This document shows positions 5,160 to 42,996 of a DNA stretch of 64,000 bases, piece by piece. The stretch is from positions 1 to 64,000 of the forward strand of contig NZ_SVEV01000007.1 of the NCBI RefSeq assembly GCF_015057185.1, read 5' to 3'. The DNA is from Pseudobutyrivibrio sp. (GTDB lineage Bacteria; Bacillota; Clostridia; Lachnospirales; Lachnospiraceae). The position numbers and the translations under genes were made by a program. Within the stretch, counting starts at the first letter, position 1. Every line of letters begins with the position of its first letter. The notes beneath the pieces were generated by a model. That model saw nothing but the letters and a program-made list of their open reading frames with translations, ran no database searches and had not been told where the DNA came from.

Positions 5160-6875
5160 CTATTTTATTTCAAACACATTTCGGTTATAACTAAGCGCCA
5201 GAAAATGCATTTTTCTTGGAGAAATGTTTTCTGCCAGATTCGAGATTATATAGCTTCTAAGGGAGCATAATTTCATATCGCTATCTGTCAAGTCAAAGAT
5301 TATTCCATCGTCCTTGATTATCAATTTTAAACTATCATCCATGAGAATTGAGCACTCTGCAAGAACGAGCTTCTCTGGGTTATTTTCTAGAATCATCATC
5401 AGCGTTTCTTCAATAAGTAACATTACTTTATTGATGATATCTTTGGTATATCCTTTCTCTTCTAAGGCCCTACCAATGTTATCCCTTGTAGTAATCACAT
5501 TTTGGGGATTTAACTCCAGCTCGTAAAAGAGTGATTTTTTAGCAGCTTCTTTGCCTGCAATAAAAAGGGGGTAATTCTCCTTGCCATATCGCATCCACAC
5601 ATACATTACGGAAATCAGGTAGCTGAGAGGCTGAGCCAGCATAATGCCAATCACCATGCCATAAAGACCACCTATCCAGTTACCAATAATGGCCAAGGGA
5701 AGAGCCACAACAACGTCTCTAAGCGCACAGATAAGCACTCCCAAAGGAATTTTGTCCACGATTATGTAATAGGATGAGTCTAGATACAGACGGCAGGTGA
5801 ATATCATACTAAGGGAAAGAATACGTATTTCCGTAACTGCAATATGTGCTGATTGTATGTCTGTAATACCAATAACTTTGATAATGTAGGGTGCAAATAT
5901 CAGTATAAGGCAGGTAACAATCACGCTTTCAACGCGCTCTGTCCATTTTGCATGATGCCATATCTCGTGCACACCTTGGTAATTTTCTTCGCCAAGATAA
6001 ATGCTAAGAATAGGTGAAATGGCTTCTCCAATTCCGTCAAATAGAATCTGAAGCTCTTTTACCAATATGATAACAGAAGCTAAAAATATCATGTTTGAAT
6101 CATAGAAATGCATTACAAGACGATTACAGCAGATGGTAAAGATTGCTATAAACAAATAAGTGCTGGAATCTACAATGCTATATTTTACTATACTTTTAAT
6201 TATTATCGGAGAATAATAAAGATTTAGATGGAGAGAATTACTCTTTTTTGTGAAATGGATAAAAAGAATGCTAAAGGTCACTATAACACTTAAAAAAGAA
6301 GCTAGTCCCAGACCTTCAATGCCTATCAAACGGCACAGAAAGATAGACAAAACAATATTACCAACACCAGATAAAAGCTCTGCTGAAGTGCTTATAACTT
6401 CGTCTCCATCAGCAAAAACCATACCTGAGATAAGAGCATCTAACGGACTTAGCATGATAACGAATTTCATCCACTTAAGATAGCCTCTGGCAAGGTCTAA
6501 AACCTCTGGTTCTGCGTTGTAGAACCTAAGATACATATCACCAAATAGAAATACCAGTAGAAACAGAGCTGCTCCTATGAATATAGTCATCAAAAGCCCT
6601 GTACCAAAGGCTCTGTCAGCTTCTTCTTTCTGGAAAGTGCCTACATGATGAGAATACAGAATGGGAACACCAATAGAAAAAATCAACGCAAAAAAGCTGG
6701 ACAAGGAATACAGGGGCATAACAAGGTTGACGCCGGCAACTCCGCGTTCGCCAAGGACAACACCCGCAACAAAGGTATCTGCCATGACCACAACAGTAAC
6801 AAGCAATGCAGATAATGTCCCTCCAGCTAGCATTGAATAGTATTTTGTTGAAATAAAGGTTTTATTATTTCGCAT
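5160..6875 (-). CDS. MATE transporter fused to a C-terminal HATPase/anti-sigma-like domain
   Basis: A 571-residue protein. Residues 1 to about 440 form a MATE transporter with about twelve membrane segments (MADTFVAGVVLGERG near residue 31). Residues about 450-571 are soluble and resemble GHKL ATPase/anti-sigma-factor domains: a LLIEETLMMILENN helix like the N box, followed by IKDDGI like the G1 box. Such a domain could bind ATP and sense or regulate transport, but this is inference. The ATG has no visible Shine-Dalgarno sequence; instead TATAAT lies six bases upstream, so the mRNA may be leaderless. It is the first gene of a two-MATE operon. Confidence 0.8.
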   Translation of the reverse strand: MRNNKTFISTKYYSMLAGGTLSALLVTVVVMADTFVAGVVLGERGVAGVNLVMPLYSLSSFFALIFSIGVPILYSHHVGTFQKEEADRAFGTGLLMTIFIGAALFLLVFLFGDMYLRFYNAEPEVLDLARGYLKWMKFVIMLSPLDALISGMVFADGDEVISTSAELLSGVGNIVLSIFLCRLIGIEGLGLASFLSVIVTFSILFIHFTKKSNSLHLNLYYSPIIIKSIVKYSIVDSSTYLFIAIFTICCNRLVMHFYDSNMIFLASVIILVKELQILFDGIGEAISPILSIYLGEENYQGVHEIWHHAKWTERVESVIVTCLILIFAPYIIKVIGITDIQSAHIAVTEIRILSLSMIFTCRLYLDSSYYIIVDKIPLGVLICALRDVVVALPLAIIGNWIGGLYGMVIGIMLAQPLSYLISVMYVWMRYGKENYPLFIAGKEAAKKSLFYELELNPQNVITTRDNIGRALEEKGYTKDIINKVMLLIEETLMMILENNPEKLVLAECSILMDDSLKLIIKDDGIIFDLTDSDMKLCSLRSYIISNLAENISPRKMHFLALSYNRNVFEIK

Positions 6876-6881
6876 GTATTT

Positions 6882-6910
6882 ATTATAACACTAAGAATTT
6901 GACGATTAAA
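6882..6910 (-). promoter_or_regulatory. Probable promoter of the MATE operon, leaderless
   Basis: On the minus strand a perfect TATAAT (6882-6887) ends six bases before the ATG at 6875, with TTTAAT 17 bases upstream as a weak -35. Transcription would start at or next to the start codon. Confidence 0.5.
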
Positions 6911-6970
6911 TACATGGCTCAAACTTCCAATATGCAGATGATTTAATCATCAAAAGCGGCAGTCCCATTT

Positions 6971-7969
6971 TTATTTACTGAACTTTTCTTTGATTTGTGG
7001 TCCCACAATCTGAATCATGATCACAATGATGAGGATGATTCCCTTGATTGCGTCATTAATAAGTGAATCCATTTTTAGGGCAACGATGATTTTGTCGATA
7101 ACTGTGTAGGAAAGTGCACCGAAGAAGATTCCGAATACTCGGCCCTTTCCACCTGACATGCTGATACCGCCAAGTACAACGGCTGCGATGGCATACATTT
7201 CGTTGCTGTTACCTGTTGTGGCTGGGTCGCATGAACCGTTCATGGCAATCCAAAGGAATGCAGAAAGGCCAACGAGAATGCCAGTGATAACAAACACTGA
7301 AGTCTTTACAAGATTTACATTGATACCTGCCATTTTAGCACCGTTTTCATTGCTACCGATGGCATAAACTTTTTTACCGAATTTTGTGCTTGTTGTAAGG
7401 TAAACAAAAAGCGCTGTGATGGCAAGAAGAACCACACCTACTGTTGGGATTGTAGCGATTCTGCCGTTTCCAAAATCGTACAGACCTTGGTATGAATCAA
7501 TGTCGCGGGACATTTTGTAAACAGAGCTTCCGCCTCCGATAAGCTCTTTATCCATTTGCTGGCAGAAATACTGGGCAAATGAGCGATAGATAAGCATTGT
7601 TGAAAGTGTAACAATGAAGGCTGGCATTTTGATGTAGCCCACTAAAAGTCCGTTGATAAGACCTGCGAAGGCTCCGAATAAAATGGCAAATAAGAATGTT
7701 AAAAATACGCTACCTGTCACGTTAAAAACAACAACTGCGAATCCTGCATCAAGCGCAAGCATTGAACCAACTGACAAATCAATTTCGCCAGTGAGACAAA
7801 CAAGTCCCATACCAAATGCAATGATTCCTACGATTGCAGAATGTCTAAAGATATTCATAACACCAAGCCATGTAAGGCCATCACTGGTGATTACATATAC
7901 TAAGAATATTAGTAAAAATACAATCACATAGCTGTATTTTCCGATTTGCTTCATTATATTTTTACTCAT
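6971..7969 (-). CDS. Sugar ABC transporter permease (RbsC/XylH type)
   Basis: A 332-residue membrane protein of the BPD_transp_2 family, the channel subunit of sugar ABC importers. It has eight to ten hydrophobic segments and the family stretch LTGEIDLSVGSMLALD near residue 60, and a later AAVVLGGISMSGGKGRVFG stretch. The start codon directly follows the stop of the ATPase gene (TAAATG), with GAGGTGC as ribosome site inside the end of that gene, so translation is coupled. Together with the next two genes it forms a complete importer. Substrate is most likely a monosaccharide such as xylose or ribose, but this is not proven. Confidence 0.9.
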   Translation of the reverse strand: MSKNIMKQIGKYSYVIVFLLIFLVYVITSDGLTWLGVMNIFRHSAIVGIIAFGMGLVCLTGEIDLSVGSMLALDAGFAVVVFNVTGSVFLTFLFAILFGAFAGLINGLLVGYIKMPAFIVTLSTMLIYRSFAQYFCQQMDKELIGGGSSVYKMSRDIDSYQGLYDFGNGRIATIPTVGVVLLAITALFVYLTTSTKFGKKVYAIGSNENGAKMAGINVNLVKTSVFVITGILVGLSAFLWIAMNGSCDPATTGNSNEMYAIAAVVLGGISMSGGKGRVFGIFFGALSYTVIDKIIVALKMDSLINDAIKGIILIIVIMIQIVGPQIKEKFSK

Positions 7970-9466
7970 TTATAGCACCTCTTCTTTCATTGCATTTGTT
8001 GAGTAGAGCATAACCTTTGTCTCTTGGATTTCATCATGCTCTAGAATCTTTTTAATCCTACCGTCATAGAATACCACGCATTTATCTGCTACTCTCTGCA
8101 GCTCTGGTATCTCTAATGTGTTAATGATGATTGTTTTGCCTTCCTGGGCAAATTTTAAAATCAATTTGTAGATTTCCGCTTTGGCTCCTACGTCGATTCC
8201 CTGTGTTGGGTTGTCGAATAAGAGTACCTCTGCGTCTGTGTTAAGCCATCTGGCGATAAAAACTTTTTGCTGATTACCACCGCTGAGAGAAAGGATTGGA
8301 AGGTCCTCACTCTCAGCTTTTATGTTAAGCATTGCTTTGAATTTTGCGTATCTGGACTTTTCCTTGGCCTTTTTAATTGGAAGATGTCTGGCTGAAAGTG
8401 TTTGCTCTGCCAAGTACATATTCTCAAGGATTGTCATGTCTGGTATTACAGAGTTTTCTTTCCTGTTTGGTGGAAGCAATGCGATTTTGTGCTTCATGGC
8501 ATCATGTATTGAGCCTGGTTTTACCTTTTTTCCATTTACGGTAAAGGTACCTGAGGTTGGAGTTAGGCATCCAAACATTGCATGAAGGAGCTCACTGCTA
8601 CCGGCTCCCTGAAGTCCTGTAAGACCGATAATCTGACCCTTTTTAATATCTAAATTAATGTCCTTGAAGCCTGGTCCGCTGTATCCCTTGAGGGAAACTA
8701 CTGTGTCACCAACCTGACGTGGCTCGTAGGTTTCTCCAGAAGAATATGCCTCGCCAACCATAAGCTTTGTGATGGACTCTGGGTCGGTGTCCTGTATTTT
8801 TCCTGTGGCAATGAAGCTACCATTTCGATAAACAGTGTAGCTGTCAGAGATTTTGAAAATCTCAGGCATCTTGTGGGAAATGAAAATAAATGAAATTCCC
8901 TCTGCCTTTAAGCCATTAATGATTGAAAACAGGTGGTCAACCTCGTCGTTATTAAGAGAGGTTGTTGGCTCGTCCAGAATAATGAGCTTTGCATTTTTAA
9001 ATAAAGCCTTTGAAATCTCAAGGAGCTGTTTCTCACTAGGCTTGAGATTTGCAACCACCTCAGTAGGATTAATTGCAACTCCAAGGCGCTCAAACAAATC
9101 CTTTGCTTCCTTTACCATCTTTGATTTATCTAGAGTAATTTTCCCTTTTGTGTATTCTTTCCCAAGGAAAATATTGTCGTATACTGTCAAATCGTTGAAA
9201 AGATTTAGTTCCTGATGAACAAAGGCAATTCCATATTCCTCAGATTCATTTATGGTAATTTTTGTATATTCATGGCCGTCGAAGCTAATGTTTCCCTCAT
9301 CGGCTACATAAACGCCTGTAAGAATATTCATAAGTGTGGATTTTCCGGCGCCATTTTCACCCAGGAGCGCGTGTACCTGGCCCTTCTCAACCTGCAAATC
9401 TACTCCATGGAGAACCTCAACCCCGTTAAAGGATTTTTTGATTCCCTGCATTTTTAGTAGGCTCAT
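7970..9466 (-). CDS. Sugar ABC transporter ATP-binding protein (RbsA/MglA type)
   Basis: A 498-residue protein with two ABC domains in tandem, the usual form for carbohydrate importers of the CUT2 class. Domain 1 has Walker A GENGAGKST (about residue 36), a signature-like LKPSEKQLLEIS and Walker B LIILDEPT. Domain 2 has the degenerate P-loop GLQGAGSSE, signature LSGGNQQK and Walker B LLFDNPTQG. Only the first site is likely to hydrolyse ATP efficiently, as is usual here. The start has GGAGG eight bases upstream. It lies between the binding-protein gene and the permease gene. Confidence 0.93.
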   Translation of the reverse strand: MSLLKMQGIKKSFNGVEVLHGVDLQVEKGQVHALLGENGAGKSTLMNILTGVYVADEGNISFDGHEYTKITINESEEYGIAFVHQELNLFNDLTVYDNIFLGKEYTKGKITLDKSKMVKEAKDLFERLGVAINPTEVVANLKPSEKQLLEISKALFKNAKLIILDEPTTSLNNDEVDHLFSIINGLKAEGISFIFISHKMPEIFKISDSYTVYRNGSFIATGKIQDTDPESITKLMVGEAYSSGETYEPRQVGDTVVSLKGYSGPGFKDINLDIKKGQIIGLTGLQGAGSSELLHAMFGCLTPTSGTFTVNGKKVKPGSIHDAMKHKIALLPPNRKENSVIPDMTILENMYLAEQTLSARHLPIKKAKEKSRYAKFKAMLNIKAESEDLPILSLSGGNQQKVFIARWLNTDAEVLLFDNPTQGIDVGAKAEIYKLILKFAQEGKTIIINTLEIPELQRVADKCVVFYDGRIKKILEHDEIQETKVMLYSTNAMKEEVL

Positions 9467-16884: not shown

Positions 16885-17094
16885 AACTCCGCTAGTTACG
16901 GTCTCAAGCCTACATATTACTTCCGTTCGCTGACACGCTCACTTCAGTAACATGTAGAGCTTGATACCTACTAGCTCACCTAATTACCTTACCATTCAAC
17001 TGAAACATGCTGACTTCAGCACTATAGAGCTTGATACCTACTAGCTCATCAAATTACTTTACTATTCATCTAAAACATGCTGGCTTTAGCATCA
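16885..17094. repeat. Seventy-bp direct repeat with an inverted upstream partner
   Basis: Copy 1 (16955-17024) and copy 2 (17025-17094) each start TAGAGCTTGATACCTACT and are about 85% identical at a 70-bp period. Each contains a small hairpin (TGCTGA/TCAGCA in copy 1). Upstream, 16887-16918 reads as an inverted version of 16947-16976, so the region can also fold as a ~30-bp stem. It lies between the FliS and FlgN-like genes and codes for nothing recognisable. Confidence 0.75.
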
Positions 17095-20451: not shown

Positions 20452-20823
20452 TTATCGCAGCACAGGGGAGATGGTTGGGAGAATGGAGATTCTGCGATAA
20501 TTTACTGGCCAATCATATTTGAAATTATCGCAACTCAACGAATTTATGCACTCTCACAGACAGTTTGCGATAGCCTATTTCACAAAATGTCTCTATTTTA
20601 TCGCAAACTAACGTAACTATGCCGGATTAAAGACGTCTTGCGATAAAAAATCGCCAAAAATAGCAAATTTTTATCGCAAACCTTCTCACAGCCTGCATTC
20701 TTTCGTTCTGTTGCGATAAAATAATGCCAAATTGGTAGATTTGCTATCGCAAATCCCCTCGCAATCCGCATACTCTCGCAGGCTTGTGATACAAACCTGA
20801 CTAATGCAGCTAAACTTATCGAC
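20452..20823. repeat. Phased array 1: alternating TTATCGCA / TGCGATAA words, 73-bp period
   Basis: TATCGCA occurs at 20453, 20526, 20599, 20672 and 20745; its reverse complement TGCGATA occurs at 20493, 20566, 20639 and 20712 with a one-base variant (TGTGATA) at 20785. Every step within each set is exactly 73 bases, and the two orientations alternate strictly. The DNA between words is strongly diverged, with only traces of common origin (a GCA near the middle and pyrimidine-rich CTC runs). The rest of the 20211-21023 gap holds the flaG leader and A/T-rich DNA upstream of the nuclease gene. Confidence 0.93.
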
Positions 20824-21023: not shown

Positions 21024-21809
21024 TTGAAGGGAGTGTCGAGTATAGAAAAATACTATAATTTGAAAATCAGAGCTATCGATAAAGAGATAAAGGAAATCGA
21101 TAGAAAACTTAATAATTTGCCAGCTGGTGAGCTGATGGCGTACACCAATAATGGATCACATAGGTGGTATTATGTGAATAAAGGTGCAAGAAAATATCTA
21201 TCAAGAGGAAATCGTTCGCTTGCCGAGAAGCTTGCATACAAGAAGTATTTATTACTTAGAAAAAATGAGTTACTCGAAGAAAAAAGTAATATAAATCAGC
21301 ACTTGCTTTTATTTGATAAATGCGCTCATGCAGAAATTGAAAAGTTTCTAAATAACTCAAGCTACTTTGAATTATTATCAAAACACATTTGTACAGAGCA
21401 TACTGGATGGATTAATGAGAAGTTTAACACAAATCCATTTTATCCCGAGCAAAGAACCGTACCATGTCCTTCTGGAAATATAGTCCGTTCTAAGTCTGAG
21501 GTTTTCATTGATATGGCTCTTACTCAGCATGGTATTCCATTTAGATATGAGTGCGAACTATTACTTGGAAAACAGGTTTATTACCCAGATTTTACTATCA
21601 AACATCCAGTCACTGGAGAAATAATATATTGGGAACATTTTGGAAAAATGGATGACCCTGAATATGCAAAAGCAGCTTTTAATAAGCTGCGCATTTATCA
21701 TGAGAGTGGACTTATTTTAGGGAAAAATTTGATAGTAACATTTGAAACCAAATCAAATCCATTTACATTCAAAGAAGCTGAAGCAGCTCTAGCTATGATG
21801 AAATTATAA
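21024..21809 (+). CDS. PD-(D/E)XK nuclease-like protein beside array 1
   Basis: A protein of up to 261 residues, no signal or membrane segment. The first ~100 residues are coiled-coil and lysine-rich (KEIKEIDRKLNNL). The C-terminal half carries PD-(D/E)XK-type motifs: SKSEVFI with Glu159, VYYPDFTI with Asp189, and IYWEHFGK with Glu204 and Lys208. This resembles single-domain endonucleases of restriction or mobile-element systems. The longest frame starts at TTG (21024) without a ribosome site. AAGGGAG at 21027-21033 is ideally placed for the AUA codon at 21042, so the start is unusual. It is alone between array 1 and a bidirectional terminator. Confidence 0.7.
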   Translation: MKGVSSIEKYYNLKIRAIDKEIKEIDRKLNNLPAGELMAYTNNGSHRWYYVNKGARKYLSRGNRSLAEKLAYKKYLLLRKNELLEEKSNINQHLLLFDKCAHAEIEKFLNNSSYFELLSKHICTEHTGWINEKFNTNPFYPEQRTVPCPSGNIVRSKSEVFIDMALTQHGIPFRYECELLLGKQVYYPDFTIKHPVTGEIIYWEHFGKMDDPEYAKAAFNKLRIYHESGLILGKNLIVTFETKSNPFTFKEAEAALAMMKL

Positions 21810-38280: not shown

Positions 38281-39201
38281 TTATGTTGCATCATGTTTTT
38301 TCTTCCAAGCGTACCACCCCATTACTGGTATTCCATTAAGCTCCAACAAATAATACAAGTCTTCTTTATTAAGTATATTGTCATCAACAGATATTCTTAT
38401 TTTCTTTTTCGAATCTTTAAAACATAGACTCAGAATGTCTATTCTCACACCTCGACCATGGAATTCTCTTAAAATCGCTTTATCAAATTCATGCCAGCTA
38501 TATTTTTCCCTAGGGAATAATAGTCCCTGCCAAATGTATTCTTCATTTATGTAAACAAAGCTTCTGTTGAACCACCAAATAATTGCTATGGCGAGAATAC
38601 TAAATATACAGTACATAATTATTTCTGAAAGCTCATATTCCGCCCTTGCCACATGATCTCTAGCGCCAAATATCACGCCAACTAAAATGATAATAGCTAG
38701 AGCAAAACAGATAAATCGAAATAGCAGCGCATACCATTTTGGTCTAACCGTAATATGCCCTTTATTTCTCATTCTTGCGAAAATAACATCATCCGAAAAA
38801 TGAATGCTGTTTTCACTCAATTTTTCAACAAATGCTCTCTTACCTGTGGGAATGATAGCCTTTTTATCATCATGCTCAATTATCGTCCCTACAAAATCCA
38901 CACTATAAATGCTTGTCACAGCGGATTTTTCAAATTCAGTACATCTGCCAAGCTTTTTGATAGTTATTATCTTGTCATCAGTATCCAAGCTGTAAAAGAA
39001 CCATCTTGCAAACTGCAGAAGCATAAGCAGGATTACTACGGATAGGAATTTCACGTATCCAATATCGAAAAACATTCCTTTCTGGATAACATCTACACGA
39101 ATATAGCTAACCACCATAGCCACCAAAAATAGTGCAATTCCAAGATATATTAAGCCAACAATTTTTCCAGTGATATGACACTTTTTATTTACTTTTTTCA
39201 A
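38281..39201 (-). CDS. Four-segment membrane protein of unknown function
   Basis: A 306-residue protein with two pairs of membrane segments (about 15-32 and 48-70, then about 163-185 and 198-215). Each pair is followed by a beta-rich soluble stretch (TDDKIITIKKLGR and EEYIWQGLLFPREKYSW), so the protein looks like an internal duplication with PH-like loops. It starts at TTG (39201), with GAGGT eight bases upstream inside the end of the SGNH gene. The stop of that gene is two bases away, so translation is coupled. No family is assigned. Confidence 0.75.
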   Translation of the reverse strand: MKKVNKKCHITGKIVGLIYLGIALFLVAMVVSYIRVDVIQKGMFFDIGYVKFLSVVILLMLLQFARWFFYSLDTDDKIITIKKLGRCTEFEKSAVTSIYSVDFVGTIIEHDDKKAIIPTGKRAFVEKLSENSIHFSDDVIFARMRNKGHITVRPKWYALLFRFICFALAIIILVGVIFGARDHVARAEYELSEIIMYCIFSILAIAIIWWFNRSFVYINEEYIWQGLLFPREKYSWHEFDKAILREFHGRGVRIDILSLCFKDSKKKIRISVDDNILNKEDLYYLLELNGIPVMGWYAWKKKHDAT

Positions 39202-39203
39202 AT

Positions 39204-39899
39204 CTAAATAACCTCTATGATTCTTTCTCTAATCATTGCTGCTACATGCTCAGAGATTGTGATCGTCTCTTCGTCCATGTTTGTTTTTACATGATTCCAG
39301 TTATTATCAGGCGTTGTGAAATCGAATGCTTTCAGGAAACTGTCGCTTGGAAGTTTGTCTGTTATTGTTTTTGTGATGGTCATTGCAACAAGGTAATCTC
39401 CGATTGGAGATGCATGGGTGCCATCCTTATAGTACAAATCAATTTCTGAGTCGTTTAGGATTTCCTTTTGAACAGCGCTCCAAATTTCACCAATTGGTGC
39501 GATTTTTACATTCTCGTCGGTGGCGATTTTTCTGTATCTGCGATTCATTTCTGCCTGATTCTCCGGTTTCTTCTTTTCAGCCCAGGTTTCGAATATTACA
39601 GGAGCTGTACCGACTTGTTTGCAGAGTTCGATAATCTCGTGAGTATACTTGATAGTGTCCTCGAAATCTGTCAGTGGGTGGGCGCATTCTTGGATGACGC
39701 AATAGTCATAATGACCATGTAGAATGTTGAATCTCTCTGAGAAGTATTCCTCTTTCATGTGCCATTTCAATGATTTCCCTGAATAGGCAAGCATGAACAC
39801 CTGGGTTTGCTCGCCTGTAGCGTTTTCTATCATTTGTCTAGTGAGCTCCGGCATGTCATTCATATATGTGTGGCTGTTGCCTATAAATAATATCTTCAT
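39204..39899 (-). CDS. SGNH-like hydrolase
   Basis: A 231-residue cytoplasmic protein resembling SGNH/GDSL esterases: block I ILFIGNSHTYMNDMP with the nucleophile Ser near residue 9, and block V DGTHASPIGDYL with the Asp/His pair near 170. It has no signal peptide, so it would act inside the cell, for example as a deacetylase or esterase. The ATG at 39899 is better placed after GGTGG than a TTG one codon earlier. It is coupled to the membrane protein gene downstream; array 2 lies upstream. Confidence 0.8.
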   Translation of the reverse strand: MKILFIGNSHTYMNDMPELTRQMIENATGEQTQVFMLAYSGKSLKWHMKEEYFSERFNILHGHYDYCVIQECAHPLTDFEDTIKYTHEIIELCKQVGTAPVIFETWAEKKKPENQAEMNRRYRKIATDENVKIAPIGEIWSAVQKEILNDSEIDLYYKDGTHASPIGDYLVAMTITKTITDKLPSDSFLKAFDFTTPDNNWNHVKTNMDEETITISEHVAAMIRERIIEVI

Positions 39900-39952
39900 C
39901 AATTAATCCACCTATATTTTCTAGTGATATTTTAACTGAAATATACACGGCA

Positions 39953-40731
39953 GACACGAAGATTTAATGTTCTTTCATTTCTTCATGTCGATTTGTGGTC
40001 CGGCTGACACGTGAATACGCTGTTCTCTCTATTCTTCGTGTCATCTGGCGCTCCAGTGGACACGTAAATGCACTGTTTTCTCTATTCTTCGTGTCATCTG
40101 GCGTCCCAGCAGACACGTAGATTCTCTGTTTTCTCAATCTCTCGTGTTGATTTAACGCTCCCTAGGCACGCAAATGTACCGCTTCCTCATTCCTTCGTGT
40201 CTGGTTTCAGTTTAATAAACACGTAGATTCAATGTCTTCTTAATTTTACGTGTCATTTTGCAATCTAACAAGCACGATAATCCGCTGGTTTCTCATTTCT
40301 TCGTGTCAATTTGAAGTCTGGCAAACACGAAAATTCACCGCTTCCTCTATTCTTCGTGCCAAACTCCATCACAACGGACACGTAATTTTACTACATCCTC
40401 ACTTCTTCGTGTCATTTAGCGCCCCGGCGGACACGTAAATGCGCTCGTCTCTCTGTTCTTCGTGTCAATTGACGCTCCAGCGGACACGTATATGCGCTGT
40501 TCTCTCTGTTCTTCGTGTCATTTACCGCTCCAGTGGACACGTAAATGCGCTCGTCTCTCTGTTCTTCGTGTCATTTGACGCCCCAGCAGACACGTAGATG
40601 CGTTGTTCTCTCTGTTCTTCGTGTCATCTGGCGCTCCGGCGGACACGTAGATTTACACTTCTCTCACTTCTTCGTGTCATTTGACACCCCAGCGGACACG
40701 TAGATGTGCTGTTCTCTCTGTTCTTCGTGTC
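39953..40731. repeat. Phased array 2: alternating GACACG / CGTGTC words, 53-bp period, 15 units
   Basis: GACACG-type words start at 39953 and recur every 53 bases up to 40695 (15 positions; 40165, 40218, 40271 and 40324 carry one or two changes). CGTGTC-type words start at 39984 and recur every 53 bases up to 40726 (15 positions; the first is CATGTC). Word-to-word distances alternate 31 and 22. Inside, TTCTT before CGTGTC and TA(A/G)AT after GACACG are also kept, and some units add a nested CTGG/CCAG. No gene is in it. It lies in the 1.07-kb gene-free stretch 39900-40965. Confidence 0.95.
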
Positions 40732-40740
40732 AATCCACCA

Positions 40741-40950
40741 TCCAGAGGCTCCTGCCTCCTCTAGAACCTGTGGCTCCCGCCACAGTCCCAGTTTCAAACC
40801 TGCTTGGCTATCCCATATCAGTAAGCTGGCGCAGAGTCAAGAGGCGAAGCGCCGCAAGGCCTTGCTCTTGACGCAAGTCAGCTGCTGATATGCTGTAGCT
40901 AGCAGGTTAAAACTGGATTCCAGTTTTTCTGAGGAAAAACAGGAATCTAT
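40741..40950. other. Highly folded intergenic element (129-bp palindrome plus three hairpins)
   Basis: Directly after array 2: hairpin GAGGC/GCCTC (40745-40758), hairpin CTGTGGC/GCCACAG (40768-40785), then an imperfect palindrome from CCAGTTT (40788) to AAACTGG (40916) whose arms share CATATCAG/CTGATATG and GTCAAGAG/CTCTTGAC, and a last hairpin at 40915-40947 with TTTTTC/GAAAAA. This could be a structured RNA or a miniature palindromic mobile element; no family is recognised. Confidence 0.65.
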
Positions 40951-40965
40951 GCCATACTTCACTCC

Positions 40966-41598
40966 CTACTTCTCTATTACCACTACCCCAGAGCAGTAGC
41001 TCTTTGGTACATACTTAATTCCTGGGAAATGTGCCTTCAATTCATCAACTACAAAATAGATTTCATCCTCATCCCAGCGCAGACCTTCGCCAACTTCGCA
41101 TTGCTCAAGCATTTCACGTGTTTCAAAGGCAACATCACCAAATAGAATCTTTCCACCATCATTTAGCAAGCCAAGAAGCTCCTTTATAAACACTACCTTC
41201 TGCTCATCGTTCAAATGATGAATAGAATAAGTGCCAACGATGAAATCATATTTCTGTTCACAAAGCTCAGGCACGAGCCCTTGGGTGATATCCCCCTGAT
41301 AAAGCTTGGCTTCTGGCATCTTCTCTTGTGCAAGCTCAATCATACGCGAAGAGAAATCCTGACCGTAAACATCGCACCCCTGCTCATAAAGCTTAGAGGT
41401 GAGAGTCGCTGTGCCAAAACCAATATCAAGAACTGCACTTCTATCAGTAGCATCTTTCTGCTTCGACCTAATCACTTCATAAATATATCCCAGCACATCT
41501 TTATAACCAGCAAATGGATAGACATTGCTCTCCTCTGATAATCCAACCGACTTATCATATCCATCCGCCCATAAATCAAAGCCTTTGTTATCTAACAT
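40966..41598 (-). CDS. Class I SAM-dependent methyltransferase
   Basis: A 210-residue Rossmann methyltransferase. Motif I is AVLDIGFGTATLTSKL, followed by YGQDFSSRMIELA and FIVGTYSIHHLND in later motifs, as in small-molecule methyltransferases of the Methyltransf_25 group. The ATG at 41598 has GGAGG. The 3' end adjoins the folded element at 40741-40950. The substrate is unknown. Confidence 0.88.
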   Translation of the reverse strand: MLDNKGFDLWADGYDKSVGLSEESNVYPFAGYKDVLGYIYEVIRSKQKDATDRSAVLDIGFGTATLTSKLYEQGCDVYGQDFSSRMIELAQEKMPEAKLYQGDITQGLVPELCEQKYDFIVGTYSIHHLNDEQKVVFIKELLGLLNDGGKILFGDVAFETREMLEQCEVGEGLRWDEDEIYFVVDELKAHFPGIKYVPKSYCSGVVVIEK

Positions 41599-41769
41599 AT
41601 TCTGCCTCCTCATTGTTGTCTTTTATGTATCAAATAAACTTTATCAATTCACATTCGCAAAGTAAATCTATATTACACTATATAAATATTTTTATAACTA
41701 CCTCCCTTCAAAACATGCCCTCGTAGCTCATGATTATACTAAGGACTTCGATTATCCCATAACGCAAAA

Positions 41770-41800
41770 AATCCCACCAGTGCCGCTCACTGATGGGATT
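41770..41800 (-). terminator. Terminator of coaBC
   Basis: AATCCCACCAGTG pairs with CACTGATGGGATT across CCGCT, with A and T runs on the sides. Confidence 0.85.
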
Positions 41801-41805
41801 GTCTT

Positions 41806-42996
41806 TTATTTATCTAAAATTGTATCAAATATAGCGTTTGCTACGTCATCCTTTGACATGATAGGTAATTCCCAGCTTTCGTCCTTCATAATCAACGTTA
41901 CTACATTAGTATCCGTTCCGAACCCTGCCCCCTTAGTACGAAGATTATTCGCTACAATCATGTCTACATTCTTTCTTTCAAGCTTGGATTTGGAATTCTC
42001 AAGCATGTTCTCTGTCTCCATTGAGAAGCCACAGATGAACTGACCTTCCTTTTTGTGTGCTCCAAGATATGAAAGAATATCCTCTGTTCGCTCAAGCTCG
42101 ATGCTTGATTGCTCCCCGTCCTTTTTCTTGATTTTCTCAGCTGCAACAGTCTTTGGTCGATAGTCAGCTACTGCTGCGCTCTTTATAATGATATCGCACT
42201 CCCCGGCCCTTGATTTAACAGCCTCTGCCATTTCTGCAGCGCTACGAACATTTACCACCTCAACAAACATTGGTGGCTCTATAGCAACGGGACCTGAAAC
42301 TAATGTAACCTCCGCGCCTCGCTCCATAGCAGCCTTGGCAATGGCATAACCCATTTTTCCAGTGCTGTGATTGGTGATGTAGCGAACAGGGTCAATAGCT
42401 TCCTCAGTAGGTCCAGCTGTGACTAACACCCTTTTTCCATTCAAATCATGTTCGTGTGCCAACTCCCTAAGGATATATTGAAGCAATACTTCAGGCTCAG
42501 GCATCTTTCCTGCACCTGTATCCCCACATGCTAAATATCCGCTGGCAGGCTCTATTATTTCAAAGCCATATTTTTTTAAAGTTTCAAGATTGTCCTGAAC
42601 AATAGGATTTGTAAACATATTTGTATTCATAGCTGGGCTAACTAGCTTTTTGCATTTAGCTGCTAGAATAGTTGTTGTGAGCATATCGTCTGCGATGCCA
42701 TGGGCCATCTTGCCAATGACATTGGCGCTGGCAGGTGCCACCATAAAAATGTCTGCACGCTTTGCCAATGCTACATGCTCAACGTTAAATTGAAAATTCC
42801 TATCAAATGTATCAACAAGACACTTATTCGATGTTAATGTCTCGAAGGTAATAGGATTTATAAAATTGGTGGCGTTTTTTGTCATGATTACATTAACGTC
42901 TGCTCCAAGCTTTACCAGTGCTGACGCCAATGATGCAGTTTTATATGCTGCGATAGAGCCTGTTACTCCAAGAACTACGCATTTACCTTTTAACAT
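41806..42996 (-). CDS. coaBC: CoaBC: phosphopantothenoylcysteine decarboxylase / phosphopantothenate-cysteine ligase
   Basis: A 396-residue bifunctional enzyme in coenzyme A synthesis. The CoaC flavin half starts VLGVTGSIAAYKTASL and has the catalytic-Cys stretch LACGDTGAGKMPEP near residue 158. The CoaB half starts KRVLVTAGPTEEAIDPVRYI and has KSAAVADYRP. The ATG at 42996 has GGAGG; a longer frame adds six unlikely residues. It is followed on the minus strand by its terminator, and the ECF transporter gene is upstream. Confidence 0.96.
   Translation of the reverse strand: MLKGKCVVLGVTGSIAAYKTASLASALVKLGADVNVIMTKNATNFINPITFETLTSNKCLVDTFDRNFQFNVEHVALAKRADIFMVAPASANVIGKMAHGIADDMLTTTILAAKCKKLVSPAMNTNMFTNPIVQDNLETLKKYGFEIIEPASGYLACGDTGAGKMPEPEVLLQYILRELAHEHDLNGKRVLVTAGPTEEAIDPVRYITNHSTGKMGYAIAKAAMERGAEVTLVSGPVAIEPPMFVEVVNVRSAAEMAEAVKSRAGECDIIIKSAAVADYRPKTVAAEKIKKKDGEQSSIELERTEDILSYLGAHKKEGQFICGFSMETENMLENSKSKLERKNVDMIVANNLRTKGAGFGTDTNVVTLIMKDESWELPIMSKDDVANAIFDTILDK

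Follow-up and report, generated by a model that had tools for sequence, protein, structure and literature searches.

Helically phased arrays of inverted words associated with a family of putative nucleases in Pseudobutyrivibrio and other Clostridia

Two phased arrays and a nuclease gene in one genomic window

The window, i.e., the entire 64,000-nucleotide stretch of Pseudobutyrivibrio sp. DNA analysed here (contig NZ_SVEV01000007.1), contains only two arrays of alternating inverted words above the threshold of our scan, one built of GACACG and the other of TATCGCA words (Table 1). The TATCGCA array is followed by a nuclease gene which has retained the motifs RSKSE, PDF and WEHFG and, judging by its position, is the putative cognate partner of this array. 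The cognate nuclease of the GACACG array lies on a different contig of the same genome (G000:C44:69034-69816, G000 being the own genome). Two further stretches of the window, 1509-1823 and 16955-17091, are unrelated tandem repeats (short-period repeats and two copies of a 70-bp unit, respectively).

Table 1. Arrays, nuclease gene and hairpin element of the window
Feature	Position	Strand	Description
Orphan array	39953..40731	.	15 dyads GACACG-N25-CGTGTC at 53-bp steps, without adjoining nuclease gene
Second window array	20453..20751	.	TATCGCA and TGCGATA words in alternation, nine in total, at spacings of 40 and 33 (73-bp period)
Nuclease paralog	21024..21809	+	261 aa counted from the frame-opening TTG; start putative
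Hairpin element, right end of the orphan array	40745..40945	.	Long imperfect stem at about 40788-40915, small hairpins on both sides

The GACACG array was described in the initial annotation as 15 units at exact 53-bp steps, and the description is accurate: GACACG-type words start at 39953+53n and CGTGTC-type words at 39984+53n, all units being in phase up to the final word, which ends at 40731. The phase is kept in the four units with an altered GACACG that had already been pointed out (GGCACG, AACACG, AGCACG and AACACG) and also in three of the 15 units with an altered CGTGTC (CATGTC, CGTGTT and CGTGCC). Comparison of the words with the DNA between them, proposed at the same time, yielded a mean pairwise identity across the 15 units of 0.917 for the words versus 0.664 for the N25 and 0.491 for the N16 stretches, and the value for the words was equalled by none of 20000 random sets of 12 columns. 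The units are partly homogenised, with a 106-bp higher-order repeat. A CRISPR array was considered and rejected, given that the constant part comprises only the 6-bp words and the intervening stretches in the window are related to one another, as the above identities indicate. The search of region 38500-42500 against Rfam returned one sub-threshold match, to RAGATH-30 (18.9 bits versus the gathering score of 59.5; E 3.1), and no family matching the arrays or the nuclease was found in Rfam, Pfam or NCBIfam.

The own genome (3.25 Mb, 62 contigs) carries three GACACG arrays, the other two being located on contigs C42 and C44. Both share the words and the 53-bp phase of the window array, whereas their spacers are unrelated, and the one on C44 is the only array of the three that directly adjoins a nuclease gene. 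Genome-wide, the pattern GACACG-N25-CGTGTC-N16-GACACG is found 22 times in forward and 20 times in reverse orientation, compared to zero for the backwards control pattern; a lone GACACG dyad with one mismatch (G000:C60:9374-9410, L049) is the sole dyad with at most one mismatch outside the three arrays. Among relatives, where the initial annotation proposed to look for such arrays, the pattern is present in 7 of the 29 genomes of the genus and the control in none. Scanning a collection of genome contigs with the exact pattern recovered 34 stretches, 30 of which come from records assigned to Lachnospiraceae, Butyrivibrio, Pseudobutyrivibrio or Clostridiales; the remaining four are single matches in unrelated bacteria, by our estimate no more than expected by chance. 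A phage origin was rejected, as the exact array pattern was present in no viral contig, and the viral scan with the window nuclease gave 14 pattern stretches but no relative. At the loci examined, neighbouring words form inward pairs 31 bp apart (139 cases) and outward pairs separated by 22 bp (108) or 31 bp (23). In the metagenome-assembled genome Tb.RUG.144 (L007, L012, L015, L020, L022, L030 and L031), many GACACG arrays have steps that alternate between 53 and 62 bp, the outward spacing alternating between 22 and 31 bp. Strain ACV-2 (G021) carries array segments that are 93-97% identical on three contigs.

Nuclease genes are associated with paralog-specific, helically phased arrays

The array-associated nucleases are proteins of ~265 aa, in which an N-terminal helical arm bearing a three-stranded sheet precedes a C-terminal domain with the fold and catalytic motif of PD-(D/E)XK nucleases, the third motif being E-H-x-G, without the lysine usual at this place. 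Residues E158, P188-D189 and E204 are invariant in 72 non-redundant nucleases, which have 16 invariant residues in total. Four members of the family had no match above the Pfam cut-offs, two had none in NCBIfam, and Foldseek returned no match at E≤0.001; a PDB profile search yielded a weak match to a phage endonuclease (E 0.04). Long-helix proteins, e.g., prefoldin and Rad50, dominate the entries of the structure comparison that cover the N-terminal part, and they speak neither for nor against the integrase-arm-like fold that we suspect for this part from the helix-sheet-helix order. The C-terminal nuclease domain matches the candidate defence proteins PDC-S68 of PADLOC (E 7.8e-29 for P0001); however, the PDC-S68 models span about 1200 residues, of which the family matches only the last ~125 positions, with the arm in place of the rest. 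Other PD-(D/E)XK enzymes, including Bax1, the Vsr-like 3hrl and Hjc, are not described with a cognate array, and a common fold is no proof of function.

The family is represented in 28 of the 29 genomes of the genus, with 1-11 copies each (genus search), and in 52 of 150 genomes of a Lachnospiraceae sample (34-row profile search). With the same profile, it was detected in 23 of 291 genomes of the class sample, seven of these from the same taxonomic family, including the own genome, and in the phylum sample in 7 of 299, two of them from outside the class, where the nuclease domain resides in longer reading frames.

The nuclease genes are preceded by arrays. In 79 upstream regions (up to 1 kb), an array was called in 66 and a phased inverted-word array, i.e., one with same-orientation spacings of mostly whole helical turns, in 59, leaving 20 regions without a phased array under this strict rule. 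With the same caller, 7 of 78 downstream regions contained an array, three of them phased (these three look true), and none of the 79 sequences shuffled by permuting two-base blocks contained a phased array. The 79 regions, which include orthologs from related genomes and hence are not independent, correspond to 93 loci minus 12 removed by name (11 duplicates or twins, and L089, which overlaps L091) and two with less than 250 bp of upstream sequence; a paralog of G002 (C14:232131) lies outside the locus set. The same selection of loci underlies the analyses of spacing, word pairs, ortholog conservation and promoter placement given below. An earlier set, which included the duplicates, gave at score 6 arrays in 61/90 upstream, 8/90 downstream and 1/90 shuffled regions. 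In 66 regions selected by a score of at least 8, the array consists of a median of 10.5 words and its 3' end is located a median of 40 bp before the start codon. In the same 66 regions, promoter placement was tried and rejected as an account of the arrays, a promoter score of at least 9.5 being reached in 11 regions versus 14 shuffled ones. In many genomes of the family, the contig tends to end no more than a few hundred bases 5' of the nuclease gene (e.g., G101:C17, G037:C103 and G049:C4), as would happen had assembly failed in the upstream array.

Arrays next to the nuclease genes are also found beyond the genus. By eye, from the printed spacings, clear upstream arrays with new words were recognized for 11 of the 29 loci that come from other genera of the family, some of these loci having little upstream sequence (L153, L154, L159, L161, L165, L166, L167, L169, L170, L174 and L178), and at 6 of 16 loci in other families (L187, L189, L190, L193, L194 and L195), with periods of 52-54, 62-64, 73-75 and 83 bp. 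At L195, from family f18 of the class, an AACGCC array with spacings of 36 and 47 bp has a period of 83 bp, equal to eight helical turns.

The words differ between paralogs and also between species at one locus. The repertoire includes GACACG, ACACGCA, CCACGTA, GGTAGTA, GATAGTA, GGCAGTA, GGATGCA, CCCGTAA, TACGGAA, AACTGTA, AGTGGTA, GACTATA, ACTTAAC, TATCGCA and TTGACAA. At nine syntenic loci located behind the same gene, which we take to be GMP-synthase-like, the word is, depending on the genome, GGATGCA, CCCGTAA, AACTGTA, TACGGAA or CATCCCA. Relatives of the 261-aa nuclease encoded next to the C44 array abut GACACG-type arrays at four further loci (L005, L009, L020 and L027). When the C-terminal part of the nuclease was accounted for, word similarity correlated with the N-terminal part, the correlation being small (0.111; reached in 0 of 500 permutations), and the corresponding value for the C-terminal part, given the N-terminal part, was 0.045 (54 of 500 permutations).

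Despite the unrelated words, the spacing is quantised. In a set of 66 called arrays of many words (a different choice from the 66 regions scoring at least 8), same-orientation spacings cluster at multiples of 10.4 bp, the best period in the range of 8 to 14 (R=0.70; 203 array-distance votes), and the clustering persists when the 49-55 bp class is removed (R=0.63; 116 votes). Peaks are observed at 52-53, 62-63, 72-73, 94 and 104-105 bp, with fewer spacings at 84-85 and 115. Of the two spacings that alternate in an array, one varies by no more than 3 bp in 49 of 55 arrays; deviations of the other from its mode are mostly of 1-2 or 9-11 bp, as would be expected for dimers on fixed dyads connected by linkers of whole turns. 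The clustering at 10.4 bp, together with the conservation of the words over the spacers, strongly supports the proposal of the initial annotation that the spacing is under selection for helical phasing of a protein.

Among arrays next to nuclease genes, the words are better conserved than the spacers in five of six close ortholog pairs and equally conserved in the sixth (0.943 and 0.945). The alignment is poor for three distant pairs, with word/spacer identities of 0.495/0.436, 0.350/0.555 and 0.610/0.465, in the second case owing to a change of the word.

Orphan arrays and the hairpin element

Arrays located away from nuclease genes carry mostly words of a nuclease encoded in the same genome, which is the case for 9 of 11 genome-word pairs examined (three in G002, two in G005 and one each in G000, G019, G027 and G028), with one of the matching arrays in G005 lying downstream of its nuclease; orphan words without a matching nuclease are found in G003 and G012. 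The genome G003 is closely related to G002; at the syntenic locus it has neither the GACACG nuclease nor the accompanying array, but it retains two orphan GACACG arrays. Eight nuclease-like hits are present in G003, and GACACG was found at none of the seven whose flanks were examined. Where orphan arrays of G003 have a syntenic counterpart in G002, identity is 84/84 and 100/108 in the words versus 193/271 and 197/353 in the rest, with flanks 89-96% identical. Given that the spacers differ more than the flanks, the array units are apparently renewed while the frame stays the same, and the conservation of the words may reflect an older constraint as well. One GACACG orphan array of G003 (L140, G003:C1:588000-602000) is interrupted at about 6430-9380 by an insertion element, present as two copies in tandem, whose reading frame is integrase-like and which we read as IS3-like.

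On its right, the window array is followed by the hairpin element (DNA fold z = -8.6), which matches no Rfam family and has relatives in 10 of the 29 genomes of the genus. In G002 and G003, these relatives are found next to GACACG arrays, several of which have one on either side, the two being inverted relative to each other; relatives also border a GATAGTA array. Among 16 further places with the hairpin, eight have clear arrays by eye, made of AAGTATT, ATGCATC, CATCCCA, GGTAGTA (four places) or TGATAAA words, four have a few TTATCAA-type words before the contig end and four have no array. Among the loci compared, the long hairpin is found beside orphan arrays only. The 35-bp tail of the hairpin (about 40916-40950 in the window), without the rest, occurs at the nuclease loci L048/L050/L080 (one place), L053 and L060. 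The element was not detected in strain ACV-2, which has the most similar array copies.

Possible nature of the arrays

As an alternative, RNA hairpins had been suggested to account for the phase of the window array, an explanation that is weakened by several results. Were the repeats transcribed into hairpins by which the nuclease is bound or guided, as in type III toxin-antitoxin systems, which we consider very unlikely, a repeat array upstream of the nuclease gene would be expected, and, as RNA, either strand of the window array indeed folds better than its shuffles (z -6.9 and -5.6, from 20 shuffles per strand). However, inverted words alone lower the folding energy. Among 146 phased dyads, all seven word pairs altered on both sides keep complementarity, but such changes are also expected if both half-sites follow one protein, and 53 pairs are altered on one side only. 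Furthermore, the excess of pairing extends past the word by only two positions (0.682 versus 0.584 and 0.608 in within-array shuffles), in a test on dyads with at most one mismatch, a choice that hides compensated pairs; the count of 146 dyads lifts this limit. When the quantisation at 10.4 bp is also considered, an interpretation at the level of DNA is by far preferable. As to known type III systems (ToxIN, CptIN and TenpIN), their toxins are described as endoribonucleases and their repeats as acting in the form of RNA (PMC5086642). The present pairs resemble them in that repeats private to each pair lie directly upstream of the nuclease gene (59/79 regions) but differ in the DNA-type nuclease fold, the inverted words, the helical spacing and the presence of arrays away from nuclease genes, and no ToxN/CptN/TenpN-type endoribonuclease was among the Pfam, NCBIfam and PADLOC hits. 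That the arrays are neutral tandem repeats, i.e., products of duplication without function, appears extremely improbable. The partial homogenisation of the units would fit, and G002 and G003 indeed lack the window array at the syntenic position, an absence which the initial annotation would have taken as a sign of a recent neutral repeat. This conclusion does not follow, however, because both genomes carry arrays of the same kind elsewhere, and duplication alone does not account for three arrays in one genome that share words and phase but have unrelated spacers, for the conservation of words beyond that of spacers or for quantised spacing over unrelated words.

Among the alternatives that retain a protein bound to DNA, we consider it unlikely that the array is a decoy in an addiction or immunity module, in which the nuclease would be harmful unless soaked up by its array, orphans would serve as a spare antidote allowing safe loss of the module and divergence of the words would block cross-neutralisation by paralogs. 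The tight linkage of gene and array, the private words, the invariant catalytic residues and the situation in G003, which lost or lacks the nuclease and its array and kept the orphans, are compatible with such a function. By contrast, the words are not depleted in ~100 kb of the own genome, where GACACG was seen 7 times versus 9.2 expected and TATCGC, CCACGT and others are not clearly depleted either, and the hairpin ends of the orphans would be left unexplained. Still less probable is a regulatory or chromosome-organising role, whereby the proteins would repress their own gene or structure the chromosome, with cleavage being secondary: the short distance between array and start codon and the presence of arrays at conserved chromosomal loci are in its favour, but it has no need for invariant nuclease motifs, and the promoter scan did not exceed shuffles. 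A type II restriction-modification system is disfavoured, as the recognition words are not clearly depleted in these ~100 kb and no other gene family is found at more than 9 of 73 loci; the commonest after the nuclease reaches this number by shared synteny, and no third gene beside the arrays was recognized.

Taken by itself, the array is quite probably, judging from the sequence patterns, a platform on which the cognate nuclease would land in the form of dimers. The nuclease dimer would read the two half-sites of each dyad, held at a rigid spacing of about three turns, and neighbouring dimers would sit on the same face of the DNA, given that the other spacing varies in steps of about one turn. 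The paralog-specific array of alternating inverted words normally abuts the 5' end of the nuclease gene, and an occupied array would keep the gene in check and retain the enzyme. Orphan arrays, often hairpin-ended, would spread with the help of the cognate nuclease in a REPIN/RAYT-like manner. No insertion event of an orphan array was seen, and mobility driven by the nuclease is suggested by analogy; that the hairpin-ended orphans are satellites spread in trans is a plausible proposal, if somewhat short of probable. As a whole, we lean towards the view that the window array is an orphan member of a two-part system consisting of arrays bound by nuclease dimers and of trans-dispersed satellites.

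Arrays of protein-binding sites in helical register beside the gene of the binding protein are familiar from iterons and plasmid partition sites, but the present arrays are chromosomal, occur several per genome, have words that follow the paralog and are paired with a nuclease. The closest parallel might be RAYTs and REPINs, described as tyrosine transposases and scattered doublets, respectively, the latter thought to depend on RAYTs, with dispersal in trans having been proposed (PMC3116915). Similar to these, an enzyme gene is tied to its own inverted-word repeats, with further intergenic copies and several pairs per genome. Here, however, the enzyme is a PD-(D/E)XK nuclease, no transposase family being among the Pfam hits at E≤1 of four family members, and the doublets form helically phased arrays; unlike REPINs, the GACACG dyads of the own genome (at most one mismatch) are all inside the three arrays except for the one on C60. 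The phased arrays of gut and rumen Clostridia, each matched to its own nuclease gene, look like an undescribed kind of genetic element. We found no publication on such arrays, although preprints and most subscription papers were outside the search, so that an earlier description is possible. It is conceivable, albeit rather doubtful, that they represent a new class of elements in Clostridia in which nucleases are kept in check by, and co-evolve with, their own phased DNA array acting as a DNA antitoxin, and hairpin-ended satellites spreading in trans free the host from the module.

If the nuclease reads the words, one small family would provide dozens of protein-DNA specificity pairs at shared loci, with the target multiplied beside the gene, and thus good material for learning how DNA specificity changes. 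The arrays would then also constitute bacterial satellite-like DNA with an evident protein partner and with helical phasing conserved across unrelated words.
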